This document shows positions 1,165-25,831 of a DNA stretch of 28,532 nucleotides, piece after piece (the stretch's first letter is position 1; every line of letters begins with the position of its first letter). Location: IMG/VR virus record IMGVR_UViG_3300030102_007053, positions 1-28,532 of that record. The stretch is one strand, 5' to 3'. The notes beneath the pieces were generated by a model. It saw only the letters and a program-made list of their open reading frames with translations. It had not been told where the DNA came from and made no database searches. The position numbers were made by a program, and so were the translations under genes. This DNA comes from a virus.

Positions 1165-1463
1165 TACTTTAACCTATCTCGCCAATCTCTGTGTTCGCCG
1201 CGAGGTGAAATAATCTGTTTATTACAAACGTAATTACTATGTGAAGTAATAACCATTGTTTCTTTGTCTGTACAAGTATAAAAACATTTTACACTATCAT
1301 CACCAAAAAAAGGCTCTACTCGTTTTTCTTGAGTCAAGCGACAAGTAACAAAATATTGATTGCGCTCATCATATAAACGACCTTTACCCTGCCATTTATA
1401 ACTAGATAAAATGACAATAAATAATAATATCTGAACACTAATTTGTTTTTTTTTAAAACACAT
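1164..1463 (-). CDS. Small exported or membrane-anchored hypothetical protein
   Basis: 99 residues from the chosen start MCFKKKQISVQILLFIVILSS at 1463. A longer frame begins at 1502, but the 1463 ATG has GAGG upstream and gives a classical N-terminus: basic residues, then a hydrophobic stretch at about residues 9-19. This predicts a signal peptide or single membrane anchor. The rest is soluble with four later cysteines (in CRLTQ, KCFYTCTDK and NYVCNKQ), fitting a disulfide-bonded periplasmic domain. The start overlaps the 3' end of the sulfotransferase gene by 11 bases. I do not recognise the family. Envelope location is inferred from the N-terminus. Confidence 0.6.
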   Translation of the reverse strand: MCFKKKQISVQILLFIVILSSYKWQGKGRLYDERNQYFVTCRLTQEKRVEPFFGDDSVKCFYTCTDKETMVITSHSNYVCNKQIISPRGEHRDWRDRLK

Positions 1464-2133
1464 ATTTAAAAACCTCAATATCTTGATTGAACATATTTCC
1501 AATTACATTTTTTGTGTAAGCATTGTAATAACTTTTATAATCAACTTTTTTTGAAGCATTTAGGTGGGGTAATTCTGGTAAATTTAAATTATAATCATCT
1601 ACAAACCTAGGCCAATCTTGTTCAAGGTGTTCAAATTTTAAAATTCTATCAAGTTTAATCACAGAGTGAGTCCAAGTTGTCTGATTTAAAACAGGTAACA
1701 TCGTATCATTGTCCTTGTTATTAAACAAAAATTCGCAAAATTCTTCAAAAGTAAGTTTTTCCTGTCCATACAATCTAAATAAGTTGTCTTGGTGAGCATA
1801 ATTATACATAGAAACAACTCTACTCCAAGGATTTCTTACAACAGAGAAACTGACATCATAACATAATTCTATTTGATAATTTTTTACAATGTCACTAAGA
1901 TCTTTAGGCGTTACATGAAAAGAAAAATCTGGATAAGGTAACAAATATTTTTGTTTATTTAGTTGTGTCAAAACATTTGGTCTAAGAAGTTGTACTACAC
2001 TTGTTGCAGAAATTAAAGAAGAAACTGAAATACCTGCTGTTTTTGGAATATGAAAGAAGAGTAATGAACTAGAGTGTTCGTTATTCTTACAAGTGTTCAT
2101 TACTATGTCAGCACCAATATTTAGGATCGTCAT
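1453..2133 (-). CDS. Sulfotransferase family protein
   Basis: 226 residues. The N-terminal FFHIPKTAGIS (residues 26-36) matches the 5'-phosphosulfate-binding loop of PAPS-dependent sulfotransferases. SVVRNPWSRVVSMY (residues 97-110) matches the 3'-phosphate-binding segment of the Sulfotransfer_2-type group. Such enzymes move sulfate from PAPS to carbohydrate or other hydroxyl groups, so a phage copy could modify host surface glycans, virion glycans or a metabolite. An alternative ATG at 2100 (residue 12, MNTCKNNEHSSS) lies just past the upstream stop and may be the true start; neither start has a clear ribosome site. The gene lies downstream of the DnaJ-type zinc protein. Family confidence is good; the acceptor is unknown. 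Confidence 0.8.
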   Translation of the reverse strand: MTILNIGADIVMNTCKNNEHSSSLLFFHIPKTAGISVSSLISATSVVQLLRPNVLTQLNKQKYLLPYPDFSFHVTPKDLSDIVKNYQIELCYDVSFSVVRNPWSRVVSMYNYAHQDNLFRLYGQEKLTFEEFCEFLFNNKDNDTMLPVLNQTTWTHSVIKLDRILKFEHLEQDWPRFVDDYNLNLPELPHLNASKKVDYKSYYNAYTKNVIGNMFNQDIEVFKYVF

Positions 2134-2302
2134 TTAAATCAGCCAAGCCAGAGCTATTTAGATTATCACGAGGATCATCTTTATGTCCTGATCCTTCACA
2201 AACTGTGCAGGTGGTTGTATTATCTACAGTCGTCAGTTTCGTTGTGTCCACTTTAATGTAACCATTACCCAAACAATCTTCGCATATTAAGTGTGTTTTC
2301 AT
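2108..2302 (-). CDS. DnaJ-type zinc-binding small protein
   Basis: 64 residues with two CxxCxGxG-type repeats, CEDCLGNGY (C7/C10) and CTVCEGSGH (C32/C35). This is the pattern of the DnaJ cysteine-rich domain, here reduced to one zinc site. The remaining C-terminus is Asp/Asn-rich. There is no J-domain, so it is not a co-chaperone by itself; small CxxCxGxG proteins usually act as zinc-stabilised protein- or nucleic-acid-binding modules. A strong ribosome site (GGAGGAG) lies in the last codons of the methyltransferase gene, and the ATG overlaps that gene's stop as ATGA (2299-2302). Co-translation suggests a possible link to methyltransferase function, which is inference only. Confidence 0.8.
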   Translation of the reverse strand: MKTHLICEDCLGNGYIKVDTTKLTTVDNTTTCTVCEGSGHKDDPRDNLNSSGLADLNDDPKYWC

Positions 2303-3765
2303 TTTTTCTCCTCCGCCACAATTATTGATTTAAAAAGCTGATAGGCAATCTGTGGCACGATTGAATTGCCTAACGACTTTATTCTATTTACTCTACCTTT
2401 GTCCAATTCATAGGATACCCCATTAGGAACTCCACAAAGTTTGGATTCAATCTCCCACCAACTTTGCCTTTTTTCATCATTTTTACTGGTAGTGAATCTG
2501 AATTCCTCTTTTGATAACTGTTGCTCACTGTTGTGTCCTTGTAATCCCTTTGAGTTGGTGTGGGAAACATCTTGTTTTCTTCCTGAACTTGTATTCTTAG
2601 TGCCTTGGGTATCGTTTTCCCTTGCGCCTTGTGTTTCTCTGCTCTCTTCTCCCAGGTTTCCAAACTCTCTGTGCAATTGTCTTTCGCCACTGGAGTTGGG
2701 TACATTTTTTTCAATTTTTTCCCCCTCTCTCTCAAGCCTGCCTCTATCATCACTTCCTCTTCCAATACTTTCCCTCCCTTGCCATTGGGTCTGCTCCCTG
2801 CTCCTGTTCTTGGAGTTGGATACATCTTCTTGTTCTCCAGATACATCATCGCATCCTGAAGTCTTGCTCCATAGGTCATATGAGGCTTGTTCTTTTTCCT
2901 CAGAATAAAACCCCCAGATTGTGTTCTCTCTACTCTGTCTGGTTGAGGTGTGTTCACATTCGTTGCTGTTGGACTTGGATACATTATTCTCACTGTGTCT
3001 GCTAGATTTAAACTGTGATCTGTTTTTCCCTTCTTTGGCATTCTTCTCCCCTTCTCGTTGAGAACCATATCTGGATGTTCTATTTCTTGAGTCGTGGGTG
3101 TTGGAAACAGAACTTTGTCGGCTAGAGCTGGGTTGCCCCTTTCTTTCCTGTGTTGACTCCCCTTGATGTTGTTGGGACCAATTCGTGAGTCTTGGGTCGT
3201 GGGTGTTGGATACATGTGATTTCCCCAACTCCCTTGATCCCTCTTGTACATACTGGGAGCGCCTTGATTCGCGGTTGCTGTTGGAGTATGCAATAATCCA
3301 GACTCTCTTTCTTTGATGCCAAGCACCGATGCCGCTAGCTGGAATAATACCACATTGGACTTCGAAACCTTCTTTTTCCAGGTCATCTTGCACCTGTCTG
3401 AGGACCATACCGTTTTGGATGTTAACAATTCCTTCCACATTTTCGCCAACAAACCATCGGGGTTTGTAAAGGGACACGACTCTAATAGTTTCATCCCAGA
3501 GATAGCGGTCATCGTCTGTTCCTCTTCGTTTTCCTGCGACTGAGAAGGGTTGACAGGGGAATCCCCCGGAAACAATGTCAACTGATTCAAAAGTATCTTT
3601 CTGGACATCTCTTATATCTCCCAAAATAGGCACATTGGGCCAGTGTTTTCGTAATACTTTTTGACAAAATGCATCTTTTTCTACAAATCCTATTGTTTCT
3701 ATATTATTATATTCTGCACCTAAACTAAAGCCACCAATACCAGAAAAAAGGTCAAGCAGTTTCAT
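2299..3765 (-). CDS. DNA cytosine-C5 methyltransferase (Dcm-like)
   Basis: 488 residues. Motif I is DLFSGIGGFSLG (5-16), motif IV GGFPCQPFS with catalytic Cys71, motif VI ENV (108-110), motif VIII HQRKRVW (150-156), and motif X SLGNSIVPQIA near residues 464-474. It would transfer methyl from S-adenosylmethionine to C5 of cytosine in DNA, typically for protection against host restriction or for marking phage DNA. The odd part is residues about 160-440, where the target-recognition domain should lie: the sequence is almost only Ser, Asn, Arg, Glu, Gln, Gly and Lys, with recurrent SNTHD/SNSN-like units and few hydrophobics. This stretch is also read in the +1 frame by the nested gene at 2388-3608. 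Starts at an ATG in TAATG overlap with a 42-residue gene. Enzyme class is certain; activity of this chain alone is doubtful. Confidence 0.93.
   Translation of the reverse strand: MKLLDLFSGIGGFSLGAEYNNIETIGFVEKDAFCQKVLRKHWPNVPILGDIRDVQKDTFESVDIVSGGFPCQPFSVAGKRRGTDDDRYLWDETIRVVSLYKPRWFVGENVEGIVNIQNGMVLRQVQDDLEKEGFEVQCGIIPASGIGAWHQRKRVWIIAYSNSNRESRRSQYVQEGSRELGKSHVSNTHDPRLTNWSQQHQGESTQERKGQPSSSRQSSVSNTHDSRNRTSRYGSQREGEKNAKEGKNRSQFKSSRHSENNVSKSNSNECEHTSTRQSRENTIWGFYSEEKEQASYDLWSKTSGCDDVSGEQEDVSNSKNRSREQTQWQGRESIGRGSDDRGRLEREGEKIEKNVPNSSGERQLHREFGNLGEESRETQGARENDTQGTKNTSSGRKQDVSHTNSKGLQGHNSEQQLSKEEFRFTTSKNDEKRQSWWEIESKLCGVPNGVSYELDKGRVNRIKSLGNSIVPQIAYQLFKSIIVAEEKK
2388..3608 (-). CDS. Overlapping (+1 frame) PTP-repeat protein nested in the methyltransferase gene
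   Basis: 406 codons on the same strand as the methyltransferase, shifted +1 and wholly inside it (its codons about 53-460). Begins MSRKILLNQLTLFPGDSPVN and ends LNPNFVEFLMGYPMNWTKVE then stop. Seven repeats, [YFH]-[PT]-[TS]-P-[TRV], fall at residues 107-110, 133, 168, 210, 263, 303 and 348, several preceded by an amphipathic segment such as LNLADTVR or ARLQDAMM. A Shine-Dalgarno GGGAG precedes the ATG with about 9 bases of spacing. From memory and unsearched, phage proteins with LPTPT repeats and a closing 'NPxFVEWLMGFPxGWT' segment occur widely, often near Dcm-type enzymes. Function unknown; plausible roles are target recognition for, or partnership with, the methyltransferase. A non-expressed shadow of the main frame remains possible, but the ordered repeats and ribosome site argue against it. 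Confidence 0.62.
   Translation of the reverse strand: MSRKILLNQLTLFPGDSPVNPSQSQENEEEQTMTAISGMKLLESCPFTNPDGLLAKMWKELLTSKTVWSSDRCKMTWKKKVSKSNVVLFQLAASVLGIKERESGLLHTPTATANQGAPSMYKRDQGSWGNHMYPTPTTQDSRIGPNNIKGSQHRKERGNPALADKVLFPTPTTQEIEHPDMVLNEKGRRMPKKGKTDHSLNLADTVRIMYPSPTATNVNTPQPDRVERTQSGGFILRKKNKPHMTYGARLQDAMMYLENKKMYPTPRTGAGSRPNGKGGKVLEEEVMIEAGLRERGKKLKKMYPTPVAKDNCTESLETWEKRAEKHKAQGKTIPKALRIQVQEENKMFPTPTQRDYKDTTVSNSYQKRNSDSLPVKMMKKGKVGGRLNPNFVEFLMGYPMNWTKVE
3611..3625 (-). promoter_or_regulatory. Internal ribosome binding site for the nested frame
   Basis: On the minus strand TTGGGAGATATAAGAGATG places GGGAG about 9 bases before the ATG at 3608. In the methyltransferase frame the same bases encode L-G-D-I-R-D-V, so both signals come from ordinary codons of that segment. 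The spacing is within the usual bacterial range, slightly long. It supports, but does not prove, independent initiation of the 406-codon frame. Confidence 0.5.
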
Positions 3766-3893
3766 TATTTCATAAGTTCCTTATCAATTTTTTTACAATT
3801 GTTTTCAAAATCTTTTTGAGAATACTTTTTTCGTTTTATATGTAGCCACATCCATTGGTAAAGTAACTCTTTTTTTTGAAGCGACATTTTCAT
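3765..3893 (-). CDS. 42-residue basic hypothetical protein
   Basis: A short frame starting MKMSLQKKELLYQWMWLH and ending KKIDKELMK. Its ATG at 3893 overlaps the stop of the 3890-4096 gene as ATGA, and its TAA overlaps the methyltransferase ATG as TAATG. Both junctions match the coupling used in the rest of this strand, and AAGG lies a few bases upstream of the start. It is rich in Lys and aromatic residues with one Cys and no membrane segment. An ATG two codons later (3887) is an alternative start. It may serve mainly to couple methyltransferase translation. Function unknown. Confidence 0.55.
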   Translation of the reverse strand: MKMSLQKKELLYQWMWLHIKRKKYSQKDFENNCKKIDKELMK

Positions 3894-4096
3894 TCTTTTT
3901 CCCTTGTCACACATTCTTGTTTATATTTTGTATATCCAAATATATCTAACGATGGGTTCTTTGGATCTGCTTTTGACCATCCTTTGTCAACCCATACACA
4001 AGTATATTCTCTTTCATTGTTTTTCTTTTGTACGAAGAAATCGGCATTGCTCCACGTATATAAATTAATCATTAGTCCTATTATAAGTGTTTCCAT
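3890..4096 (-). CDS. Small hypothetical protein with hydrophobic N-terminus
   Basis: 68 residues, METLIIGLMINLYTWSNADF at the N-terminus. The first 15 residues are hydrophobic but lack a basic n-region, so this could be a weak signal sequence or simply a buried helix. The body contains CVWVDKGWSKADPKNPSLD and ends in a charged tail. It directly follows the 4097-4339 gene with no spacer (stop at 4097, start at 4096). Several neighbours share this format of a short hydrophobic start and a small polar body. Family not recognised. Confidence 0.55.
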   Translation of the reverse strand: METLIIGLMINLYTWSNADFFVQKKNNEREYTCVWVDKGWSKADPKNPSLDIFGYTKYKQECVTREKE

Positions 4097-5462: not shown

Positions 5463-7323
5463 CTTCACCAAAGTCTGAGCCTAGGGCAACATCTACCACG
5501 CTTGGAACACACAATTCCACGCAACTCTCCATCGCTCTCTTTATTTTTTGTACATCTTCATCATTTACATTAAAACACAATTCATCGTGTATTTGTAACA
5601 ATGGTAAAAATCCTAATTTATAGCAAGTAACGATGGCTTGCTTAGTTTGATCTGCAGCAGATCCTTGTATCAACCTATTTAGTGCCTTATAAGTAAATGC
5701 TCTTTTTATATTGTTACGACCATATTTTGCTGAAGCATTTTCAAATTTTTCAGGTGTGTGAATACCAAAATCTTTTGGTTCCCACATATCAAATCTACAC
5801 TTGCGCCCTAGTTTAGTTCTTATCACACCTTCTTCATTAGCTTTTTTCATACATCTGTCTGAAAGTAATTTTACAAAAGGCGCTCTTCTGTTAAATTTAC
5901 CTATTAATGCACTAGCATCATCAAATTGAAGACCTAACATATTTGCTAATTTATTTTTTCCCATACCATACATCAATCCTAACCCTATTGTCTTTGCCTG
6001 CTTACGATCTATACCAACTAAATCTGCTACTGTTTGATGAAAGTCAGCATCAGCATTTGTATAAGCTTCAACTAATTCTTGAGAGCCCTCATAACCCTCA
6101 CCAATGCTAGAGGCATAATGAACAACTAAACGTGGTTCTTGTTGTGAATAATCAAACGACCCCCATTTGTAACCCTCCTCAGGCAAAAATAAACCTCTAA
6201 TAGCTGGCCCAAATTCTTTGTTTCTAGCTGGGAGCTGTTGTAAATTTGGGTTTGACATACTTAATCTTCCACTAACAGTCCCCCCACTATCTGAGCGTAG
6301 TTGATTTATTTCTGCATGTATTCTACCTTTGTGTTCAAACTTCATTATATTGTTTACAAAAGTATTTCTAAATTTGTTAATCTCCCTAGCTTTAACAATT
6401 AACTGGCTAATCTGATGATTGGAGTTCGTTAGCCAATTTTGTGTAAAACTAGGTTCGCCACTTTTTTGCGTCTTAGGATAATCAATACCTAATTTGTCAA
6501 AAGCAAAACCAATTTGACGAGCTGCCCAAATATCAATATCTTTACCTACTAATTTTTTTATTTTGTGCAGAGTAGTCTTTTCTTTTACCTCAAAGTCTTT
6601 TTGTAATTTTTGTGCTTTTTCAACATCTACTCTTATTCCTTTCATCCTCATTTCAATAACAATTGGTAATAATTGTTTCTCTAAACTCCATATAGTTTCT
6701 AAATTTTGTCTGTGTATTTCGTGTTTAAATCTCTGCCATAGGAGGTACGTGAGTCGTGCATCTTGTTCTGCGTAGTAACCAACGTGTTCAGCGGGTAACA
6801 TCCACATTTCCATTTTTGGATCTACACCATGTGCTTTAGCTGCTTCAATCAAATCAGTTTCAGCTTTTAACTCACCTACATAATCTTTACCTAGAGCATT
6901 TAGCTTATATGTGTATCTGTTTTCATCAATCAAAGCTCCAGCGACCATTGTGTCTACAATCTCACCTTTGACATCTATACCATAGGCCTTAAGCCATCCA
7001 ACATCATATTGAGCATTATGAAAAATTTTACGACAAGGTAGATTGCAGATGTCGTGCATATATTTTAATACTTGTTCTTTTATTAGGTTACCACCGCCAA
7101 AGTGACCAAAGGGGTAATAGCCTTGCCAACCTTCAGTAGCCACAGCAAAACCAATTATCTCGCCTTTACTTGTTGCCCATCCAGCACCTAAACCTTTGTT
7201 TATACCCTCATCACGAGTTTCAAGATCAATAGCAATTTCCTCAGCTTCTGATAAATCCTTATACTCACTTGGCGCTGACCAAATGTGTTTTTTAAAATTA
7301 AAAGTTAATTGTAAACTAGTCAT
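5455..7323 (-). CDS. polA: DNA polymerase I (family A) with 3'-5' exonuclease
   Basis: 622 residues. It copies phage DNA. The N-terminal proofreading domain has Exo I DLET (D33/E35), Exo II HNAQYD (102-107) and Exo III YAEQDA (184-189). The polymerase domain has motif A DYSQQEPR (Asp391), motif B RKQAKTIGLGLMYG (R440, K444, Y452) and motif C QIHDE (His579-Asp580-Glu581). There is no 5'-3' exonuclease domain, as usual for phage PolA. The position matching E. coli Phe762 is Leu448. From the marine virome literature as I remember it, Leu at this site marks a large environmental PolA group with presumed slower, more accurate synthesis. The start overlaps the upstream oxygenase gene by 8 bases. 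Last gene of the leftward replication operon. Confidence 0.97.
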   Translation of the reverse strand: MTSLQLTFNFKKHIWSAPSEYKDLSEAEEIAIDLETRDEGINKGLGAGWATSKGEIIGFAVATEGWQGYYPFGHFGGGNLIKEQVLKYMHDICNLPCRKIFHNAQYDVGWLKAYGIDVKGEIVDTMVAGALIDENRYTYKLNALGKDYVGELKAETDLIEAAKAHGVDPKMEMWMLPAEHVGYYAEQDARLTYLLWQRFKHEIHRQNLETIWSLEKQLLPIVIEMRMKGIRVDVEKAQKLQKDFEVKEKTTLHKIKKLVGKDIDIWAARQIGFAFDKLGIDYPKTQKSGEPSFTQNWLTNSNHQISQLIVKAREINKFRNTFVNNIMKFEHKGRIHAEINQLRSDSGGTVSGRLSMSNPNLQQLPARNKEFGPAIRGLFLPEEGYKWGSFDYSQQEPRLVVHYASSIGEGYEGSQELVEAYTNADADFHQTVADLVGIDRKQAKTIGLGLMYGMGKNKLANMLGLQFDDASALIGKFNRRAPFVKLLSDRCMKKANEEGVIRTKLGRKCRFDMWEPKDFGIHTPEKFENASAKYGRNNIKRAFTYKALNRLIQGSAADQTKQAIVTCYKLGFLPLLQIHDELCFNVNDEDVQKIKRAMESCVELCVPSVVDVALGSDFGEAT

Positions 7324-8023
7324 TTGTTTTTATTTCACCTGTAGATGTAAGCACAGGTTGATTAGGATCTGGAGCGGGTTCTGGTTGCATAAATGGTGTT
7401 TTACCAACAAAAAATAAATTACCTGAGACAGTAATTCTTTCTTCTTCAATTTCATAATAAGGATATACTGTGTGACATAAATTAGCAGGAAAAATATAAC
7501 CTGTCCCCTCATAATTTTTATCAACAAGTTTCGTTGTTGAGTGTACTTCATTATCCAAACCCATATGAATAAAATCTAAAGCACCAACAGAGTTAGAGTT
7601 AGATTCTTTGCCTGGACCAATCTTAGCTTGATCTTGAAAAACAAAAGGAACCTTAACAAATATTACAAAAGAAAACACACCAAAATGTTTATGCACTGGA
7701 TTAAACTCGTGTTTTTTCATAAAGTTGACCCACAAATTAGCTAGATATAGTAAAACAGGAGCATCTTTTACAACTGCTTTAATTTTTTGACGATAAACAT
7801 AATCTCTAAGATCTTGTTTTTCAAATATAAAATTATCCAAAAATTTATATAAGTCTGGAAAATCAGGGTCTAAAACATATTCATCTCTAATATTACCTGC
7901 TAAATGCATATTCCATTTTAAATTTTTATTAGTGCGATCTACTTGAGATATTCTTAATTTAAGTTCATCAAAAATTGAAGTTGGTAAAGTAAACTTTTTT
8001 AGATATGGATATTCGTTATTCAT
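7316..8023 (-). CDS. 2-oxoglutarate/Fe(II) oxygenase-like protein
   Basis: 235 residues. NPVHKHFGVFSFVIFVKVP (108-126) resembles the metal-binding first half of the 2OG-FeII_Oxy_5-type fold, with His111/His113. GYIFPANLCHTVYPY (175-189) supplies the distal His184, and EERITVSGNLFF the Arg196 expected to bind 2-oxoglutarate. The canonical HxD is here H-K-H, so the third iron ligand is uncertain. Family members hydroxylate proteins, nucleic acids or small molecules. The C-terminus is a Pro-rich tail (PEPAPDPNQP). Lying between DUF3310 and PolA, it may act on DNA or nucleotide substrates, but that is inference. Starts in 8-base overlap with the DUF3310 gene. Confidence 0.75.
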   Translation of the reverse strand: MNNEYPYLKKFTLPTSIFDELKLRISQVDRTNKNLKWNMHLAGNIRDEYVLDPDFPDLYKFLDNFIFEKQDLRDYVYRQKIKAVVKDAPVLLYLANLWVNFMKKHEFNPVHKHFGVFSFVIFVKVPFVFQDQAKIGPGKESNSNSVGALDFIHMGLDNEVHSTTKLVDKNYEGTGYIFPANLCHTVYPYYEIEEERITVSGNLFFVGKTPFMQPEPAPDPNQPVLTSTGEIKTND

Positions 8024-13284: not shown

Positions 13285-14691
13285 ATGGATAAATATTTAT
13301 ACAAAACAAAACCATATGAGCATCAACGAGAAGCCTTGATACGTGGGGCTGACAAAAAAGAATATGCTTATTTTATGGAAATGGGTACAGGCAAAACAAA
13401 AGTTACCATAGATAATGTTGCTTACTTATATTTACGAAAAAAAATTAACGTTGTAATTGTTGTCGCTCCAAATTCGGTATATCAAAATTGGAAGACCGAA
13501 ATAGACATTCACTGTCCCTGCGACACAGCCATCTACATTCATAAAGTAGACAAAAAATTTGAAGTAAAAGAAGGTAAACTAAACTTCTTTTTAATAAATG
13601 TAGAAGCATTTTCTCACTCCTCTGGAGTTAAAGCGGTTGAAAATATTATATCTAAATATCATTCTAGTATGTGCATAGTAATTGACGAAGCTACTTCAAT
13701 TAAGAACCGATCAGCCAAACGCACAAAAAACATATGCAAAGTATCACAACCATCACTTTACAAAAGAATTCTAACAGGTTCTCCAATTACAAAATCTCCC
13801 CTAGATTTATACTCGCAGTGTGAATTTTTACGACCAGGCATTTTAGGGTTTAATAATTATTATGTATTTAGAGCCCGATATTCAGTGATGAAACAAATTC
13901 AAGTTGGTGCTAATAAAAATCTAATGATCCCCTTATATTATACTAATTTATCAGAATTAGAGGAGAAAATCAAAGTGTTTTCATACAGAGTTCGTAAAGA
14001 CGAGTGTCTTGATTTACCACCAAAAGTTTATGAAAAAAGAAATGTTAAGCTGAGTCAACAACAAAAAATTGCATATGGTGAGTTGAAAGAAAATTGTAGG
14101 GTAATTATTCAAGATGAAATGGCATCATACAACAATAAATTAACAGAGATAATTAAATTACAACAAGCTTGTAATGGTTTTATAAAAACTGATGAAGGTC
14201 AAATAATAGAATTTCCTTGTGGCAAACTAGATGAGTTGATGAGTATTTTAGATGAGGTGGATGGTAAAGTAATCATTTGGGCTAACTTTGTTTATAACAT
14301 AGAAAAAATAATAAAAACTTTAGAGGATAAGTTTGGTTCAATGTCTGTTGTTTCCATCTATGGCGATGTGCCTGTCGTTGTTAGAAACTCAGCTGTTAAA
14401 AATTTTCAAAAAAATAAACAAGTTAGATTTTTTGTTGGTAATCCAAGCACAGGTGGATATGGGCTTAATTTAACAAAGGCTAAGACAGTGATCTATTTTA
14501 GTAATTCTTTTAATTTAGAAGTTAGACAACAATCTGAAGACAGAGCACACAGAATTGGACAGAAGAAAAGTGTAACATATATAGATCTTATTGCCAAAAA
14601 AACAATTGACGAGTTTGTTTTAAAAAGTTTAAATCAAAAACTTACTTTAAGCGCTCAAACTTTAGGTGAGGAAGTTTTAAAATTTTTGTAA
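13285..14691 (+). CDS. SNF2-type SF2 DNA helicase/translocase
   Basis: 468 residues. Motif I MGTGKTKVT (33-41), Ia VVVAPNSVYQNW, II VIDEATSIKN (Asp134-Glu135), III LTGSPI (163-168), and in the second RecA domain STGGYGLNLTKAKTVIYFS and QQSEDRAHRIGQ (motif VI arginines). The DRAHRIGQ signature is typical of SNF2-family translocases, which move on duplex DNA rather than strand-separating it. Short phage members are found in replication or recombination modules. It is one of only two plus-strand genes here, transcribed from a promoter that competes with the replication operon, and its last 37 bases overlap the Cas4-like nuclease gene tail to tail. There is no Shine-Dalgarno before the ATG. Confidence 0.93.
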   Translation: MDKYLYKTKPYEHQREALIRGADKKEYAYFMEMGTGKTKVTIDNVAYLYLRKKINVVIVVAPNSVYQNWKTEIDIHCPCDTAIYIHKVDKKFEVKEGKLNFFLINVEAFSHSSGVKAVENIISKYHSSMCIVIDEATSIKNRSAKRTKNICKVSQPSLYKRILTGSPITKSPLDLYSQCEFLRPGILGFNNYYVFRARYSVMKQIQVGANKNLMIPLYYTNLSELEEKIKVFSYRVRKDECLDLPPKVYEKRNVKLSQQQKIAYGELKENCRVIIQDEMASYNNKLTEIIKLQQACNGFIKTDEGQIIEFPCGKLDELMSILDEVDGKVIIWANFVYNIEKIIKTLEDKFGSMSVVSIYGDVPVVVRNSAVKNFQKNKQVRFFVGNPSTGGYGLNLTKAKTVIYFSNSFNLEVRQQSEDRAHRIGQKKSVTYIDLIAKKTIDEFVLKSLNQKLTLSAQTLGEEVLKFL

Positions 14692-17526: not shown

Positions 17527-17735
17527 GCGATAAGTCCTATTATTGTTATAATAATGGTAAGCATACCACTCATTAACCAAAACAACAACTTGTCTACTTT
17601 CGCACCTAATTTATCTATATCTTCGTGAATGTGAGCGAGGTGATTCTCCTTAATAGTCGTAACTTCTCTTTTCACACCTTCAATGTGTCCATAAAGAGAT
17701 ATTATATGTTCTTTCGTGGTTCGTGGTTCAGGCAT
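17514..17735 (-). CDS. Holin-like small membrane protein (XhlA-type layout)
   Basis: 73 residues. The N-terminal two thirds form a charged amphipathic helix (EHIISLYGHIEGVKREVTTI, then HIHEDIDKLGAKVDKLLF) ending in one membrane span (WLMSGMLTIIITIIGLIAW). This is the architecture of haemolysin XhlA-type phage proteins, which act with holins in host lysis. With a single span it may be a class III holin or a holin partner. It overlaps the 1152-residue gene by 8 bases upstream and the other membrane protein downstream. No endolysin is recognised in the window, so the lysis assignment is tentative. Confidence 0.6.
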   Translation of the reverse strand: MPEPRTTKEHIISLYGHIEGVKREVTTIKENHLAHIHEDIDKLGAKVDKLLFWLMSGMLTIIITIIGLIAWIQ

Positions 17736-20700
17736 TTTGTTTTCCTTGGGCTATCATTTGTCCAGATGGATCATTAGGGAATAATCCAGCATATTGTTGA
17801 GCTCTGTTAGGTTGCATAGCAGCTATTCCTTGTTGAGCTGGTGGAGGTGTTGGAGCTTCTGGTCGTGATGCGGGTTGCATAGCTGGTGCTTGCATAGCGA
17901 ACATATTCACAGTTGGTGAAATCACTTGACTTTGTGGTTGTATGTCTTCTTCTTGTGGTACTGGAAAAGTTTCCTGTATTACATCAAACTCCTCTCCTTC
18001 AGGAATAGTTTCATAATCTAACTTAAAAGGCACACCTAATGAAAGACCCATAGCATTTCTAAATGCTTTTGAACGTATTGGTTTGTCTGCCGCTTTAAGA
18101 TATGCATCTAATAATTTTGGTTGTGTTAAAATATCAGCCATAGCTTCGTCCATCGCAATTCCAAGATATTTTAAAGCACCTGTAAACATTTTACCTTCTC
18201 TACTTAAAGGTCTAAATAATAAACCTCTTGCCATATCAACAGCATATTGAGGTATATTAGCTGCCTCTTGTAAACCCTCCGTCCCCCTTACTACACGAGA
18301 ACGAGTCATTAAGTCAGTTGCTTGTTCAACCTTTTTTAAATTTTTAATATACTGTTTACCTGCATCATCATTAAAAATTGCACGTAGGGTTTGACCATAG
18401 CCTTCATCAGAGGTGTCTAAAAATTTTTTAAGGTTTTTAAAAGATTGTGGTGTAATGTTACCCCTATCATCTAATATTTCTCTATAAATTCTTGCATGTA
18501 CTTTTTCTTTAATTTGTTGAACAGCCTCTGGCTCATTTTTTAGAATATTCATAATACTACGAGCTTGATTTGGATTATTTTTATCAAACAAATAATCATA
18601 CACTTGACTTGGCCTTGCAGATGCAAGTTGCCCTTTTGTTGATTTTTCAATGTTTTTCAAAACTCTTTCTGCTTTCTCTTTTGTTGTTTTGTTTACTTTA
18701 GTAAGATCTCCTAATGCATTTATTCTTGCGAAGTCTCTGTCACCAAAAAACTTTTTAACAGCATAGCCATAACCGTCTTCTGAATCCATAAACGCTTTAT
18801 GTTTGTTTGGATTAGGAACACCAGTTTCTGGATCAATGACCTCTCTTCTATATTTACTTTCTACTGCATCACGCATCGTAGATATTGCGTCAGGTCTAGA
18901 TTTTAAAACATCATAAGTAAGATCAACATTTGTTCTATCCATATTTTGTGACCCTTTTTTAAAAACTTGTTTAAAAACATCTTCGTCACCTATTTTTACG
19001 GAGCCGTCACCAATTTTTACAACATCACTTAAAGTGCCCGCAAATTTATTTCTAAATGTTTCGTATTTTTTTGATAGTTTTATATAATCTTGCAACCAAG
19101 GATCATCAGCTCCAAGTTGATCACTAAATTCTTGTCTGTAAGCTTTTTCTAATTTTTCAGGATATCCTGGTACTCCAAAATAATCACCATCTTTTCTCAT
19201 CAAAGATGTAATTGTTTGTTTAATGTCCTCTAAACGTCTTTCACCTGCTTCAAGTTTAATTTTTTTTCCTTCGGCATCTACAACTTTTAATTTTCTTAAA
19301 GGATTTTTAACAAGCTCATCTATTTGTGTTTTTGGAATATCATTAGCCTCAAGTAAATTTTTTAAACGTTGATATTCTTTTACTACTGGACCTTTTTTTG
19401 CAAGTTTTATTGTTCTATTACCTCCAAGATTAAACAAAGTCGCATACTCATTTGCAAAATCTTTGCTTTGAGTTTTATAAATATCTTTTATTATTCCACT
19501 TATTTCAACTCCTTTTGCTTTAGTATCACCAGATGCCAAATTTACCGTTTGATTTGTAAGGTTTCTTTCAGCATTTTGCATAGCATCAATTGCTACTTTT
19601 CTTCTAGGCTCAAGTCTTTTTTGAATAACTTTCTGAATCATTCTACCTATATTTTCTTTATGTTGTGGGTTGGCACCAATAAAATCATCAATACCTAAAT
19701 TTTTTGCATTCAGTTCAACATATGCTTTTAAAGCATCTGCTCTTTCTTTATTAAATGTGTCAAACCTACCTTGCAAGCCATACTTATCATTATCCTCATA
19801 ACGTTTTTGTTTTCTAAGCATTTTAGGATTGTTCATAATTTCACCTAAAGAAAAATGAAGTTTTTCTTTTATATTGGCTAAACCAAGTGTTTCATTCATT
19901 TCATCTAATAGTTGCTTTGTTTGCGCAGCATTCAGTTTGTTATTTTTAATATCTTTTACTATATCTGGATCAATTTTGTGACCTTTGACCACACCCTTAA
20001 TTAGGTTAAATGTTTTTTCCATAGTTAAACCACCCGCAGTAACGGCTGCATTTAAAGAGTCAAATTTACCTTTTTTTTTCAACACATCAACAAAACCATC
20101 ATATCCTTTGTTTACACCATAAAGTTCATTACCAAGGTAAATACGAGCAGCATCGCCAAATGCAGAACCATAGCCTGAACCAATTCCCGCACCAACCATT
20201 GATGAAAAACCTGGACCAAAAAGACTTGCTCCAAAAGAACCTAAAGCACCTGTCGTTGCACCTGGCAAACCTCCCTCTAAAGCACCAATTGTTGTGCCAG
20301 AAGCTATCGCAGAAGCAGGAGTAGAACCTAAAATTAAACCCATAGTTGCACCAATTGCATCAGGAACCATAACTAAAGCATCTCCACCCATACCCGCAAT
20401 ATCTTCCAAACCCGTGCTTGGAGGATTTAACAATTGTTTTTTACCAGTTTCTGGATTTATAAAAACATACTCCCCAGTATTTTCTTCGTAGAAAGGTTTT
20501 ACTTCTTGACCAAACCTAGCTGATAAAACATTACTTGCCGCTTGTAATTTATCAGTATCTAAATCTCCTAATGATTTTGCAAAAGCAACTTCAGCAGCCC
20601 CCTCATAAGCATCAGCACTTATATCATTTCTAGTTGCTATCTCTTTAGTAGAATAATCAGGGTTAATATCAATTGGATCATCTAAAAACTCTGTTGGAGA

Positions 20701-21186
20701 AAAAGCCACATTATCCCTTTCAACTGACTTAGATGCAAAATTATCAAAGAAATCTCTATATTTTATATTTGATACTCTAGGAATTGAAATTTGATCTCCT
20801 TGGGGAGTTAAGGCTTTAAACGGTACATTTATTGTATTATATGCGTGTTTAGCTATTTCAAGATCATCCATAGTTTGTAAGTTTGGATCAAACTTTGAAA
20901 ATGCCTCAACATAATTTTTTTGACTTGCAAGTGGGCCATTTGGATTAAACTCTTTGTAGAATTCAAAGTAATCTGTGTTTGGATTGTCCTGTAACTCAAG
21001 TTGATACAAATAATTTGTTACGTCATGTCTATTTTGATTAGCTAGATCAGGATCAAGTTCCATCGCTTGGTCGGTGTTTTTGTAGACATTATATCTGTTA
21101 AATTTTCTTTTTATATTTGATACAGTTTCAGACAAGGGGTTAAGTTCTCCTAACTTTTCTAAATTTTCCTTAGTTGCTTTTGTCAT
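17728..21186 (-). CDS. Large internal virion / DNA-ejection protein
   Basis: 1152 residues, the largest gene here. Polar N-terminal 250 residues, then a long Gly/Ala-rich hydrophobic section at roughly 260-350 (DAIGATMGLILGSTPASAIA, GFSSMVGAGIGSGYGSAFGD) able to insert in or cross membranes, then about 700 residues of charged helical sequence, and a Pro/Gln-rich tail (SRPEAPTPPPAQQ). This composition and length resemble the ejection proteins of T7-like phages (gp15/gp16 class), which leave the head and form a conduit through the envelope. I see no lytic transglycosylase motif. It couples to the 595-residue protein gene by TAATG. Role inferred from layout and neighbours. Confidence 0.7.
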   Translation of the reverse strand: MTKATKENLEKLGELNPLSETVSNIKRKFNRYNVYKNTDQAMELDPDLANQNRHDVTNYLYQLELQDNPNTDYFEFYKEFNPNGPLASQKNYVEAFSKFDPNLQTMDDLEIAKHAYNTINVPFKALTPQGDQISIPRVSNIKYRDFFDNFASKSVERDNVAFSPTEFLDDPIDINPDYSTKEIATRNDISADAYEGAAEVAFAKSLGDLDTDKLQAASNVLSARFGQEVKPFYEENTGEYVFINPETGKKQLLNPPSTGLEDIAGMGGDALVMVPDAIGATMGLILGSTPASAIASGTTIGALEGGLPGATTGALGSFGASLFGPGFSSMVGAGIGSGYGSAFGDAARIYLGNELYGVNKGYDGFVDVLKKKGKFDSLNAAVTAGGLTMEKTFNLIKGVVKGHKIDPDIVKDIKNNKLNAAQTKQLLDEMNETLGLANIKEKLHFSLGEIMNNPKMLRKQKRYEDNDKYGLQGRFDTFNKERADALKAYVELNAKNLGIDDFIGANPQHKENIGRMIQKVIQKRLEPRRKVAIDAMQNAERNLTNQTVNLASGDTKAKGVEISGIIKDIYKTQSKDFANEYATLFNLGGNRTIKLAKKGPVVKEYQRLKNLLEANDIPKTQIDELVKNPLRKLKVVDAEGKKIKLEAGERRLEDIKQTITSLMRKDGDYFGVPGYPEKLEKAYRQEFSDQLGADDPWLQDYIKLSKKYETFRNKFAGTLSDVVKIGDGSVKIGDEDVFKQVFKKGSQNMDRTNVDLTYDVLKSRPDAISTMRDAVESKYRREVIDPETGVPNPNKHKAFMDSEDGYGYAVKKFFGDRDFARINALGDLTKVNKTTKEKAERVLKNIEKSTKGQLASARPSQVYDYLFDKNNPNQARSIMNILKNEPEAVQQIKEKVHARIYREILDDRGNITPQSFKNLKKFLDTSDEGYGQTLRAIFNDDAGKQYIKNLKKVEQATDLMTRSRVVRGTEGLQEAANIPQYAVDMARGLLFRPLSREGKMFTGALKYLGIAMDEAMADILTQPKLLDAYLKAADKPIRSKAFRNAMGLSLGVPFKLDYETIPEGEEFDVIQETFPVPQEEDIQPQSQVISPTVNMFAMQAPAMQPASRPEAPTPPPAQQGIAAMQPNRAQQYAGLFPNDPSGQMIAQGKQNA

Positions 21187-22973
21187 TAGAAAGGTTGTCC
21201 TCCACCTTTATTTGTATCATTACCTTTTGGTTTTGGCTGTTGACCAGGTTTTAAAATTTGAATACCCGGTTCACCAGAAGGTAATGTACCTTCTTTTTCT
21301 TGTTGACTTGCTGGTTTTACTCTTATAGGTCTGTTTCTTTCAAAAAGATCTCTATACATATTTAATTCTTTGTAGTCTGATGGTAACTCACCATATTTTC
21401 TACGCCATTCTTCCATTGGACTGTTCAAATCATTATATAAAGTTTCAGATAATTTTTGTCTTAGTAAAGTTGGATCTGAAACATCACCAATTGAACGCAT
21501 TGCATTCTCAATATCACTGACAGAAAAACGTCCTCCTTCTTCTCTTTGTTTTGCTTTAGCATAGGCTAATTCAATAACTAAAGACTGCAAACCAGCGTCC
21601 AAAGTTTGAAATTTCTTACTTAGAGAAGTTAAATTAACTTGAGAGCCATCAGCACCCGTCTCAAATACTGCTTGATCACCATACTGATCTTTTAATTTTT
21701 CTTTCATTTGACTTATTTCAGAATTGTAAACACTTTCAGGAATATTTAAACCTTCTTCATTTCGTGTAAATTGGTTTTTAATGAAAGCGCCTAGTCCAGC
21801 AGTCAAAGAAGAAAAATTAGCAGTTTGTCCAGCTCTTGCACCTTCATTTATATACCCTAAAGCTTTATCACCAAGCTGTGCAAGATTAAAAGATTTTTTT
21901 AGTCTTGCTTCAAGTTTAAGTCTTTCTTTCATATCCGCTTCATATTCTTTTCTCTTTAGTGAGTCTGTAAAAGCAGATTCTCTTGTGCTAGGTGGTTTAA
22001 CATATTTTCTTTTATACCCTGGAACTTTTTCTGCAAAAAAATTATCTCTGAATAATTCATTAGCTGTTATTTCAATGACAGTTTGATTTGGATCATTAGC
22101 AAGCATTACAGATGTCCTACCTAAAAATCTTTCTTGAGTTTTTGGATTAAAGTTTTTGGTTGCAATTGACATAACGTTTGGTACACCATCCGCATCAAAC
22201 TGCACTACGTCCATAAACCCTTTTTCTTCAGTTCTAGCTTTTGTATGATACCTTGGATCATAAGCTCCTTCTGGTATATAAATATTTTTACCCTTACCAC
22301 CGTCTGCTCTTGAGTCAAAGACCCAAATATTTTTGCCTTTTTTTGTTTTTGTAGCAAGAAGTTCAGCTTCAGCAGCTTTTGTTTTTCCATAAAGGGTTGC
22401 AAAATCACCAACACCATAAGCAAAACCACTTGATAAGGTTGCTCCTGGCTCTGCTAATCTTTTGGACACTAAGGCGGCAAACATTCCTAAGTTATCACTT
22501 CTGCTAAATAACCCCTCTGATTTTACTTTTTCTTTTTCCTCTTCTAATTTTTGAATTCGTTCTTGATCATTTTCAAGTCTTTGTTGATTTACACGTTGAT
22601 CAATAAAAGTAGTATTAGGATCTTGTTTAGGTCTTTGTTGGTTTTCTTTTTGAATAGACATTATACCTTGATCAAGTTCTTGTTCAAAAAGTTTATCTTT
22701 ATTTAAAGCTCTTTCATTCTCTCTACCACTAATAATGCTCTCTTTTATATTTACATCCTGAGTTGGTGTTCTTGTTTCAATTTCAACATCCTCTTGCATA
22801 CCAGATGGTTTTGTAATAGTCATTATACCTTGATCCTTGCTTGGTTGTTGACTTTGATTATTCATAGCTAACTGTTGAAAATTCATAGCAGGGCCACCAT
22901 TAACAAAACCTTGTGGTTTGTGAAGCTCCATAAATCTTTTTTGAAATAAAGGTCTGAGTAAAGTCTTATCCAT
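21186..22973 (-). CDS. Internal virion-type structural protein
   Basis: 595 residues. The N-terminus (KPQGFVNGGPAMNFQQ) is followed by a disordered Gln/Asn/Glu-rich region with a repeated DQGIM unit (DQGIMTITKP and DQGIMSIQKE), then a coiled coil (RLENDQERIQKLEEEKEKV). The central part from about residue 230 looks folded (IWVFDSRADGGKGKNIYIP), and the C-terminus is again polar and Gly/Lys/Gln-rich. Its place between two other large helical virion candidates supports an internal virion or tail-associated role. Starts 3 bases after the upstream stop. No enzymatic motif seen; family not named. Confidence 0.65.
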   Translation of the reverse strand: MDKTLLRPLFQKRFMELHKPQGFVNGGPAMNFQQLAMNNQSQQPSKDQGIMTITKPSGMQEDVEIETRTPTQDVNIKESIISGRENERALNKDKLFEQELDQGIMSIQKENQQRPKQDPNTTFIDQRVNQQRLENDQERIQKLEEEKEKVKSEGLFSRSDNLGMFAALVSKRLAEPGATLSSGFAYGVGDFATLYGKTKAAEAELLATKTKKGKNIWVFDSRADGGKGKNIYIPEGAYDPRYHTKARTEEKGFMDVVQFDADGVPNVMSIATKNFNPKTQERFLGRTSVMLANDPNQTVIEITANELFRDNFFAEKVPGYKRKYVKPPSTRESAFTDSLKRKEYEADMKERLKLEARLKKSFNLAQLGDKALGYINEGARAGQTANFSSLTAGLGAFIKNQFTRNEEGLNIPESVYNSEISQMKEKLKDQYGDQAVFETGADGSQVNLTSLSKKFQTLDAGLQSLVIELAYAKAKQREEGGRFSVSDIENAMRSIGDVSDPTLLRQKLSETLYNDLNSPMEEWRRKYGELPSDYKELNMYRDLFERNRPIRVKPASQQEKEGTLPSGEPGIQILKPGQQPKPKGNDTNKGGGQPF

Positions 22974-24041: not shown

Positions 24042-24444
24042 AAAAAAATCCTGTCTTTTTAAATTTTAAATTATTATTTTTTATAATTCTATCCCAACCT
24101 TTTCTACCTATTATTTCTAAACCATCGCATTTTTGTTCTTTTGCATAGTTTAAGAAAAACTTTTCTATTTTTTTTACTTCTTTAATAACTTTACTACCAC
24201 CACAAAACAAAATTCCTAAAATTAATTTTGCAGGGTAATATATTTTTTCTACAACATATACAGCGCATAGTTTTTTTTTGTCCATTACTAAAAACATAAT
24301 CATTGTGCCTTGTTTTAAAAGTTTGTATGTGGAATCTAATGTATGACGACCATTAGACTGTACAACCACTTTATAAATCCAATTTTTTACTTCATCCCAA
24401 AACACATCAATACACTCTATATCAACTTGCTTTATTTCTATCAT
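24025..24444 (-). CDS. T7 gp13-like internal virion protein (GNAT-like fold)
   Basis: 139 residues. The layout is that of a small N-acetyltransferase-like fold: YKLLKQGTMIMFLVMDKKKLCAVYVV as the central hairpin and CDGLEIIGRKGWDRII plus KKTGFFYE at the end. The 'G-R-x-GW...GF' ending is characteristic of phage proteins grouped with T7 gp13, which is needed for virion assembly and probably does not act as an enzyme. The place between two virion-core-type genes fits exactly. The start overlaps the upstream gene by 23 bases. Good but not certain assignment, because sequence similarity in this group is low. Confidence 0.7.
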   Translation of the reverse strand: MIEIKQVDIECIDVFWDEVKNWIYKVVVQSNGRHTLDSTYKLLKQGTMIMFLVMDKKKLCAVYVVEKIYYPAKLILGILFCGGSKVIKEVKKIEKFFLNYAKEQKCDGLEIIGRKGWDRIIKNNNLKFKKTGFFYEVAT

Positions 24445-25831
24445 TTACTAAATCGTACACTCTTTTTAATGAGTCTTGTTGTTTATAAAAAAACTGTGCA
24501 CCCTTTCTTCTCATATCTTTAAAATCATCAGGGTTCGCTCCTGACATTATGCCTGCACCCAAAATAGCATCAGCTCTTGACACAAACTCACCATCAGCTA
24601 ATTGTGCTAACATAGTATCTTCATCTTTATCACCGTTACCTGCGCCATCTTCAACATACCCCATAGCCCTTACATAATTATTAGCATCTTTTTCATCGTG
24701 ATCTGTTTTACTAGGCAAATAATTTATACCACCTGTTTTAAGTTTCAGAGTCGCCAATCCACCTTCTTTAGCTGCCATCACATCTAGTCGCTCATAGACA
24801 TTTTTTGGTGTTACTTTTTCATCTTCATCTTCATAAATTGCTCTTTCACTTGCTGGGTCAATAAGTGCTCTTTGTCTTAAATACCCTTCACTAGTCCCCA
24901 TATCAGGGAACAAATCTTCATCTCTTGTATCATAAACTGGTTGATTTGGCCTATAACTTAATCCTGCTGCACCTAAAGCTAATAATGTGCCGGGATCTGT
25001 TAATGTATCGCCTATTTTTCCTGCTACTCTATCAATACGCTCGCCAAATGGTACAGGTGGCTTTGGAATTACTGAGGGAGCATTTACTGTCCCAATAGCA
25101 GGAGCTCCAGTATACCCTTGTATAGTTTCAGCTTGTATTAAGTTCTCAGGTCTTGCGATTGCTGCCACAGGTAAACCTCCAGCTCCCGTCGCTCCTTGAG
25201 CTGCCATCATCGCTCCTTTACCAGCTTCTAAACCAGTTGTCATAAATCCTGGTGCACCTGCAATTGATCCACCACCAAAAGCTCCTGAGGCACCAGCAAC
25301 ACCTTGTTTACCCAACATAGCTAAGGGAGCTTGTGAGCCAGATATACCCGCTGCAGAAAGACCTTGAGCAGTAGTGGGTCCAACAGCACTTGCTAATACG
25401 TTAGCGCCTTGAGCTGCAGTGGTAGAGCCCGCGCCTAATGCTCCACCAAATTTAGATAATCCTGCTTGTGCACCTGTGGCTGTCGCTGTACCTCCTGTTC
25501 CTAAGGCGGCAATACCTCCAGCACCAAAACCACCAAGTAAACCAATACCTAGTGCATTTCTAGTGGACATACCTGCTAATTTAGCCACTCCAAAAGCAGC
25601 TGTACCCACTATCAAACCAATCGCTAGAGGTCCTAAATATTGTTTAAGTTGAGTGTTTGGATTGTAAGTGCCTGCACCTCCAATTGATTTAAGAAACGCC
25701 TCTTGTTGTGGAGTTAGATATGCAAGTTCGGTATCTCCCCCAATTCCTTTTGCAGCTATATCATCATATAAAAGATTGGCAATCCAAGTTTTTATAAACT
25801 TGGGGATTAATTTAATAATCCACTTAAACAT
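24422..25831 (-). CDS. Gly/Ala-rich virion protein with shared N-terminal module
   Basis: 469 residues. Residues 1-67 (MFKWIIKLIPKFIKTWIANL, DIAAKG, ELAYL, LKSIGGAGT) match the start of the 22977-24041 protein. Residues about 70-260 are almost wholly Gly/Ala/Thr/Ser with hydrophobic membrane-active stretches (GLIVGTAAFGVAKLAG, GIGLLGGFGAGGIAAL). The C-terminus is ordered and acidic, with AQLADGEFVSRADAILGAG, a segment I know from many marine phage virion proteins, and ends QQDSLKRVYDLVNDR. Probably a component that crosses or lines the membrane during DNA entry. Ribosome site AGGAG; a promoter and palindrome lie just upstream. Confidence 0.7.
   Translation of the reverse strand: MFKWIIKLIPKFIKTWIANLLYDDIAAKGIGGDTELAYLTPQQEAFLKSIGGAGTYNPNTQLKQYLGPLAIGLIVGTAAFGVAKLAGMSTRNALGIGLLGGFGAGGIAALGTGGTATATGAQAGLSKFGGALGAGSTTAAQGANVLASAVGPTTAQGLSAAGISGSQAPLAMLGKQGVAGASGAFGGGSIAGAPGFMTTGLEAGKGAMMAAQGATGAGGLPVAAIARPENLIQAETIQGYTGAPAIGTVNAPSVIPKPPVPFGERIDRVAGKIGDTLTDPGTLLALGAAGLSYRPNQPVYDTRDEDLFPDMGTSEGYLRQRALIDPASERAIYEDEDEKVTPKNVYERLDVMAAKEGGLATLKLKTGGINYLPSKTDHDEKDANNYVRAMGYVEDGAGNGDKDEDTMLAQLADGEFVSRADAILGAGIMSGANPDDFKDMRRKGAQFFYKQQDSLKRVYDLVNDRNKAS

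Follow-up and report, generated by a model that had tools for sequence, protein, structure and literature searches.

A nested +1 reading frame in a phage C5-cytosine methyltransferase gene probably encodes the target-recognition part of a two-subunit enzyme

An original prediction for this DNA described two long open reading frames on one strand, the one at 2388-3608 being nested in a methyltransferase gene. Both frames, here called alpha and beta, are present at those coordinates in the window, i.e., the whole 28,532-nt stretch of viral DNA that was analysed, and both are read from the minus strand. The offset from alpha to beta is 157 nt, which places beta in the +1 frame of alpha, and the 406 codons of beta lie entirely within the 488-codon alpha gene. 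The third frame of the minus strand is crowded with stops. The parts of the locus are as follows:

2299..3765, minus strand: alpha gene, C5-cytosine methyltransferase of 488 aa with motifs I-VIII and X (PF00145, 4.4e-52; TIGR00675, 1.4e-44; M.HhaI match, 5.7e-21, residues 2-163 only)
3295..3765, minus strand: alpha catalytic large domain with motifs I (LDLFSGIGGF), IV (GGFPCQPFS), VI (ENV) and VIII (QRKRVWI), from motif positions and the AlphaFold model of relative L171
2386..3294, minus strand: alpha-frame passenger stretch from motif VIII to X, stop-free, with low-complexity VSNTN-type repeats
2350..2385, minus strand: alpha motif X, RIKSLGNSIVPQ, from motif positions; its helices are of high confidence in the L171 model
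2388..3608, minus strand: beta gene, nested +1 frame of 406 aa (phrog_1008, 3.5e-33; dN/dS 0.19 in the variable region)
3618..3622, minus strand: GGGAG, Shine-Dalgarno-like, 9 nt upstream of the beta ATG
3291..3608, minus strand: N-terminal part of beta, dual-coding with alpha motifs IV-VIII (dN/dS; confident beta-hairpin in the L171 beta model)
2460..3290, minus strand: beta module array; its seven modules are 26-53 aa long and start with HTPT, YPTP, FPTP or YPSP
2400..2450, minus strand: motif IX-like segment of beta, LNPNFVEFLMGYPMNWT (hhalign to actinophage methylases)

Alpha has the features of a PF00145 member, i.e., the SAM-binding motif I, the catalytic PCQ of motif IV, the ENV of motif VI and the QRxR of motif VIII, and the match to this family bears out its earlier reading as a clear methyltransferase. 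Motif X is also present. In its own polypeptide, alpha is without a target-recognition region and motif IX; the stretch between motifs VIII and X drifts in sequence and is disordered in the L171 model, and the motif IX-like segment sits in the beta frame instead. Placement of the target-recognition region and motif IX on the same chain as the catalytic motifs holds for single-chain C5 enzymes, but not for the known split ones. The ordered repeats, C-terminal motif, ATG and ribosome site ascribed to beta in the original prediction can now be specified. The seven modules start with [H/Y/F]-(P)-[T/S]-P at beta residues 107, 133, 168, 210, 263, 303, and 348, the C-terminus reads LNPNFVEFLMGYPMNWTKVE, and the GGGAG stands 9 nt before the ATG. 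The beta stop codon, with its last base at 2388, is followed at once by motif X in the alpha frame.

That an accidental frame of 406 codons would be unlikely had also been proposed, and this agrees with a randomization in which the alpha protein was kept fixed, its synonymous codons were shuffled 5000 times and the longest +1 frame was scored. The mean was 161 codons and the maximum 362, compared with 407 observed, and none of the 5000 shuffles was as long; with codons drawn from the neighbouring genes, the maximum was 324 codons. The G+C content of the region is 44-47%, as compared with about 32% in most of the window, and the coding strand is poor in T. This T-depletion of the alpha frame explains some of the openness of beta, and can itself be caused by selection on the beta frame.

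The first beta ATG usually lies 11-14 codons upstream of the PCQ motif. By itself the ATG is uninformative (127 observed and 115 expected), but its combination with a Shine-Dalgarno sequence that has at least five of six matches to AGGAGG occurs at 76 of 144 loci, whereas synonymous randomization of the alpha codons gives an expectation of 22.1. A second conserved in-frame ATG, belonging to the sequence MTxxSG, is found 18 codons past PCQ in 96 of the 144 loci, and may be an alternative, or even the true, start of beta. The N-terminal third of beta is weakly constrained.

Selection was analysed in codon-aligned locus pairs split into four zones, with 56 independent pairs, none of which share a locus; the alignments were built on the alpha protein, and are thus biased against finding constraint on beta. 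Outside the overlap, dN/dS is 0.10 for alpha and 1.56-1.65 for the +1 frame. Where the overlap covers the catalytic core, both frames are constrained, alpha (0.22) more than beta (0.81). In the variable region past motif VIII the roles are reversed, and beta has a dN/dS of 0.19 (95% interval 0.16-0.23) where alpha has 1.12 (0.93-1.35) and the +2 control frame 1.41. The positions of the changes follow the same pattern, since the third position of alpha codons takes 67% of changes outside the overlap as opposed to 22% in the variable region, while the first position, which is the wobble position of beta, takes 57% of the variable-region changes compared with 22% outside. A comparison of the window with six close relatives gives 0.18 for beta and 1.60 for alpha. 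Over the variable two thirds, beta is the constrained frame and the repeat-rich middle of alpha is a passenger, and the reversal of dN/dS implies that what reads as VSNTN-type repeats in alpha is a shadow of the PTP modules encoded in beta. The selection regime is cleanly readable, with one third in which both frames are constrained and a remainder in which the roles are swapped. The earlier description of beta as overprinted on the enzyme gene consequently fits the catalytic-core part, but has to be turned around for the variable two thirds, and the synonymous variation per frame, which had been suggested as a check, is unlike that of single-frame coding. Given the shuffle test (0/5000), the enrichment of Shine-Dalgarno sequences and the purifying selection in the variable region, beta is, as read from sequence, a real gene, and a chance open frame is ruled out by the shuffles, dN/dS and the codon-position pattern.

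Beta matches phrog_1008 (3.5e-33; L026, 4.7e-72), a phage family labelled 'DNA methyltransferase', and the suspicion that it represents a real phage family is substantiated by its presence in hundreds of phages and prophages. A first search with beta found 24 viral loci, and a search with a beta alignment found relatives encoded in 476 viral and 237 bacterial or archaeal stretches, out of which 80 of each were retained. In nearly all loci examined, beta overlaps the methyltransferase frame in the identical +1 relation. Among the Bacilli, the family occurs in 27 of 399 sampled genomes, and in 0 of 14 control genomes. Searches for HNH, nuclease and other known domains gave no Pfam or NCBIfam match of substance in beta. 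In 137 loci the alpha frame has no stops, where 986 would be expected upon shuffling of synonymous beta codons, but these loci were picked beforehand with both frames open, and the zero is not independent. A fairer count of openness comes from 74 related phage genes found by methyltransferase alignment alone, with no beta criterion, though by relatives of this enzyme. Stops in the +1 frame of homologous methyltransferases had been named as a point to check, and in nearly all of these 74 genes the frame is kept open between motif IV and a point just short of motif X, whereas the +2 frame of the same genes has 3 to 36 stops each. Clear exceptions are L247 (identical to the frame-broken contig L093) and L234.

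Some loci deviate from the common arrangement. L027 was considered as a truncated enzyme with a surviving beta and rejected, because a frame change disrupts its enzyme frame and its beta is likewise interrupted, by a stop upstream of MTTEISG. L093, L136, L151, L154, L170, and L177 were considered as fusions, but look like single-base frame changes that exchange the alpha and beta frames, for which mutation, phase variation and assembly error are not separable. In four loci from Bacilli (L298, L299, L301, and L302), motif I reads CSGVGC, alpha stops after motif VIII, and a +1 beta overlaps; when L302 is read through, its beta holds motifs IX and X, as in M.AquI. In L103, an extra short cassette with PTP and LMGYP is present at 2119-2350, downstream of the alpha/beta pair. 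L026 is Paenibacillus phage DevRi, in which both frames are annotated 'DNA cytosine methyltransferase', with a note by the annotators that the nested one was called by no program.

In actinophages, the same parts are found in one frame or in two separate genes. Mycobacterium phage Hamulus gp68 and Gordonia phage Fitzgerald gp4 have motifs I-VIII, LLPTP modules, an EWMM segment (EWMMGWPAGW in Hamulus and EWMMMLPAGH in Fitzgerald) and motif X (GNGVCP, with the consensus GNGVCP[QP]QA) in a single frame. Two overlapping genes in different frames are present in Firecracker (gp6/gp5), Maverick (78/77), Vash (32/33) and Colucci (82/83), where the first gene has motifs I-VIII, and the second the modules, IX and X. 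In Severus and ByChance these two genes lie next to each other, also in different frames, and Ovechkin gp69/gp70 resembles the two-gene forms. Nesting of the second part, with motif X left in the outer frame, is seen in the window, in Paenibacillus phages, in Pseudomonas phage PMG1 and in Edwardsiella phage eiAU. The beta segment LNPxFVEFLMGYPxNW aligns by hhalign (probability 95%) with the actinophage segment RLxxAFxEWMMGWPxGWVT, which lies immediately before motif X and shares its frame. The +1 frame of Hamulus retains a leftover beta N-terminus, and Hamulus may for this reason have arisen by secondary fusion instead of preserving the ancestral form.

In the C5 methyltransferase fold, as represented by M.HhaI, the large domain comprises motifs I-VIII and X, and the small domain the variable region and motif IX (PMC3404938). 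By their motif content, alpha and beta appear to match the large and small domains, respectively. An AlphaFold model of the compact alpha relative L171 (65 aligned sequences) has a large domain mostly with pLDDT >90 and a motif X region at 81-97, while residues 161-211, between motifs VIII and X, fall below about 55 and are disordered; superposition on M.HhaI gives a Z score of 23.8 over 193 residues. To judge from this modelled relative, alpha is without a small domain, and only the large domain and motif X are predicted to fold. The most compact members have just 58-75 codons from motif VIII to X, which is few for a small domain. When modelled alone, L171 beta has a pLDDT of 62 and a pTM of 0.26, with only a beta-hairpin and the motif IX helix confidently predicted, and a fold search with this low-confidence model has a best Z of 2.5. 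Such a poor solo model is what a partner-dependent domain might give, and proves nothing.

Across loci, beta has mostly 1-9 modules with a median of 41 aa, which is about the size of the target-recognition units of Bacillus phage methyltransferases. The length of alpha between motifs VIII and X tracks the number of modules (r = 0.90). The module families of the window recur elsewhere in other positions and with other neighbours; family 5 is found in 11 loci with nine neighbour pairs, and family 2 in 15 loci with 11 neighbour pairs. By analogy with tandem target-recognition units, each beta module would confer one specificity.

Based on these observations, we consider it very probable that the locus encodes a two-subunit C5 methyltransferase in overlapping frames, in which alpha is the catalytic subunit and nested beta supplies the small domain with target recognition and motif IX. 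The outer frame would give alpha, with motifs I-VIII and X joined through a long disordered stretch that is a mere shadow of beta, and the nested +1 frame, from its own ATG and Shine-Dalgarno sequence, would give beta, with about seven exchangeable target-recognition modules ending in motif IX. Alpha and beta would assemble and act jointly as one enzyme that methylates the phage DNA, most likely at several sequences, and thereby counters host restriction. The assignment of target recognition to beta, which is probably correct, rests on position, motif IX and the one-frame homologues.

A different reading, which we regard as quite unlikely, is that beta is expressed mainly as a fusion by programmed frameshifting, in which ribosomes would read motifs I-VIII of alpha and then move by +1 into the frame of the modules and motif IX, yielding one-chain enzymes. 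Natural one-base changes in L093, L136, L151, and L154 do bring motifs I-VIII of alpha in frame with beta parts, and these, with the one-frame genes of Hamulus and Fitzgerald, indicate that covalent fusion is tolerated or useful. However, a single shift would drop motif X, which the window and most relatives encode in the alpha frame; beta has its own ATG and an enriched Shine-Dalgarno sequence, and the whole overlap is open in both frames. It is also improbable that beta is a real protein with a role independent of methylation, e.g., an anti-restriction or host-takeover factor, that merely happens to be located in the methyltransferase gene. The free exchange of beta-type modules would suit such a protein, as would the one clear free-standing beta-like gene, in L129 (a Flavobacteriales MAG, 3167-3961), which lies directly behind an alpha gene and has its other two frames filled with stops. 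Against this, almost all members found lie over or next to a C5 methyltransferase gene with the same +1 relation, complete actinophage methyltransferases contain these parts in frame, and alpha has no small domain of its own; rather than being unrelated to the enzyme, beta probably is its missing target-recognition and motif IX part. That beta is an untranslated shadow, open through composition and enzyme constraint, is barely credible, for although the T-poor region removes stops and the N-terminal third of beta mirrors conserved enzyme motifs, no shuffle reproduces the frame, beta is constrained where alpha is not and the synonymous-site pattern is reversed, Shine-Dalgarno sequences are enriched, and L129 has a free-standing copy.

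Division of a C5 methyltransferase between two proteins has precedents. The small gene of M.EcoHK31I is reportedly nested within the large gene, in a different frame, and methylation is said to require both proteins. By its description, M.EcoHK31I (YGGCCR) has motifs I-VIII and X in the large polypeptide and motif IX only in the smaller one (PMC3404938), which resembles the window, where I-VIII and X are in alpha and IX is on a separate polypeptide. The predicted target-recognition domain (TRD) of M.EcoHK31I is assigned to the larger subunit (PMC3404938), which is a counterpoint to the two-subunit reading given here, since selection and the one-frame homologues place the TRD of the window in the nested frame; a further difference is the seven-module array. 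M.AquI is a natural two-polypeptide split with motifs I-VIII in the larger chain, where the break falls within the variable region and the second chain has IX and X (PMC3404938), whereas motif X of the window is in alpha and beta is wholly nested. Firecracker, Vash and Maverick have IX and X on the second chain as in M.AquI, and these pairs, together with Colucci, are closer to M.AquI than the window is. Multispecific Bacillus phage C5 methyltransferases have tandem target-recognition units in one enzyme (PMC8936443), similar to the window, but their units share the catalytic frame and the modules of the window are in +1. The methylase gene of mycobacteriophage ShiLan likewise contains a second frame, but this is a hidden HNH element, an inserted homing endonuclease (PMC11855218). 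Beta is instead integral to the gene in nearly all relatives, and no Pfam or NCBIfam HNH match was found in the window beta or the other beta proteins scanned.

The original prediction knew of no description of such an overlapping pair. This does not hold for two-polypeptide C5 methyltransferases as such, of which M.EcoHK31I and M.AquI are known (PMC3404938), but literature searches for nested methyltransferase genes in phages found none. What is new is the assignment of target recognition to a nested, shuffled module array over a passenger catalytic frame, together with the selection data behind it and how widely the family is spread. We lean towards the view that the locus represents a class of C5 enzymes, widespread among phages and prophages, in which the whole TRD is a block-recombining cassette array in the +1 frame, and in which the 'TRD' recorded in databases for the catalytic frame is a passenger. 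The arrangement is present in nearly all related phage and prophage genes examined, usually annotated as a single gene, and it is uncommon for one stretch of a DNA virus to encode two long proteins. If the reading is correct, many phage 'DNA cytosine methyltransferases' are half-annotated, prediction of specificity from the catalytic frame is meaningless, and cloning of recoded (codon-optimized) genes silently destroys the recognition subunit. One catalytic subunit could then also serve several recognition proteins, free-standing extra beta copies included. The one-frame, two-gene and nested homologues form a series in which the origin and separation of overlapping genes can be followed.

TRD assignments in M.EcoHK31I and in unusually short enzymes such as M.BatI may likewise need redrawing. 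M.BatI is a prophage enzyme that is active from its native gene and has an unusually short TRD (PMC8936443), and it may be a candidate member of the family with a hidden nested beta. As an experimentally active member it was set aside, because a motif-spacing test on the Bacilli loci did not convince.

As for the surroundings of the locus, a protein of 64 aa, whose weak similarity to the DnaJ zinc finger stays under the cut-off, is encoded at window positions 2108-2302 (minus strand), and its ATG overlaps the alpha stop codon. A protein of the sulfotransferase family (PF03567, 2e-8), found here in a phage contig, is encoded at 1453-2133 (minus), and one that resembles 2OG-Fe(II) oxygenases (PF13759, 1.9e-8) at 7316-8023 (minus). 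Large frames of 1152, 595, and 469 aa at 17728-21186, 21186-22973, and 24422-25831 (all minus) have no PHROG match. A DNA helicase gene (phrog_62) at 13285-14691 stands alone on the plus strand, the other large genes of the contig being on the minus strand.
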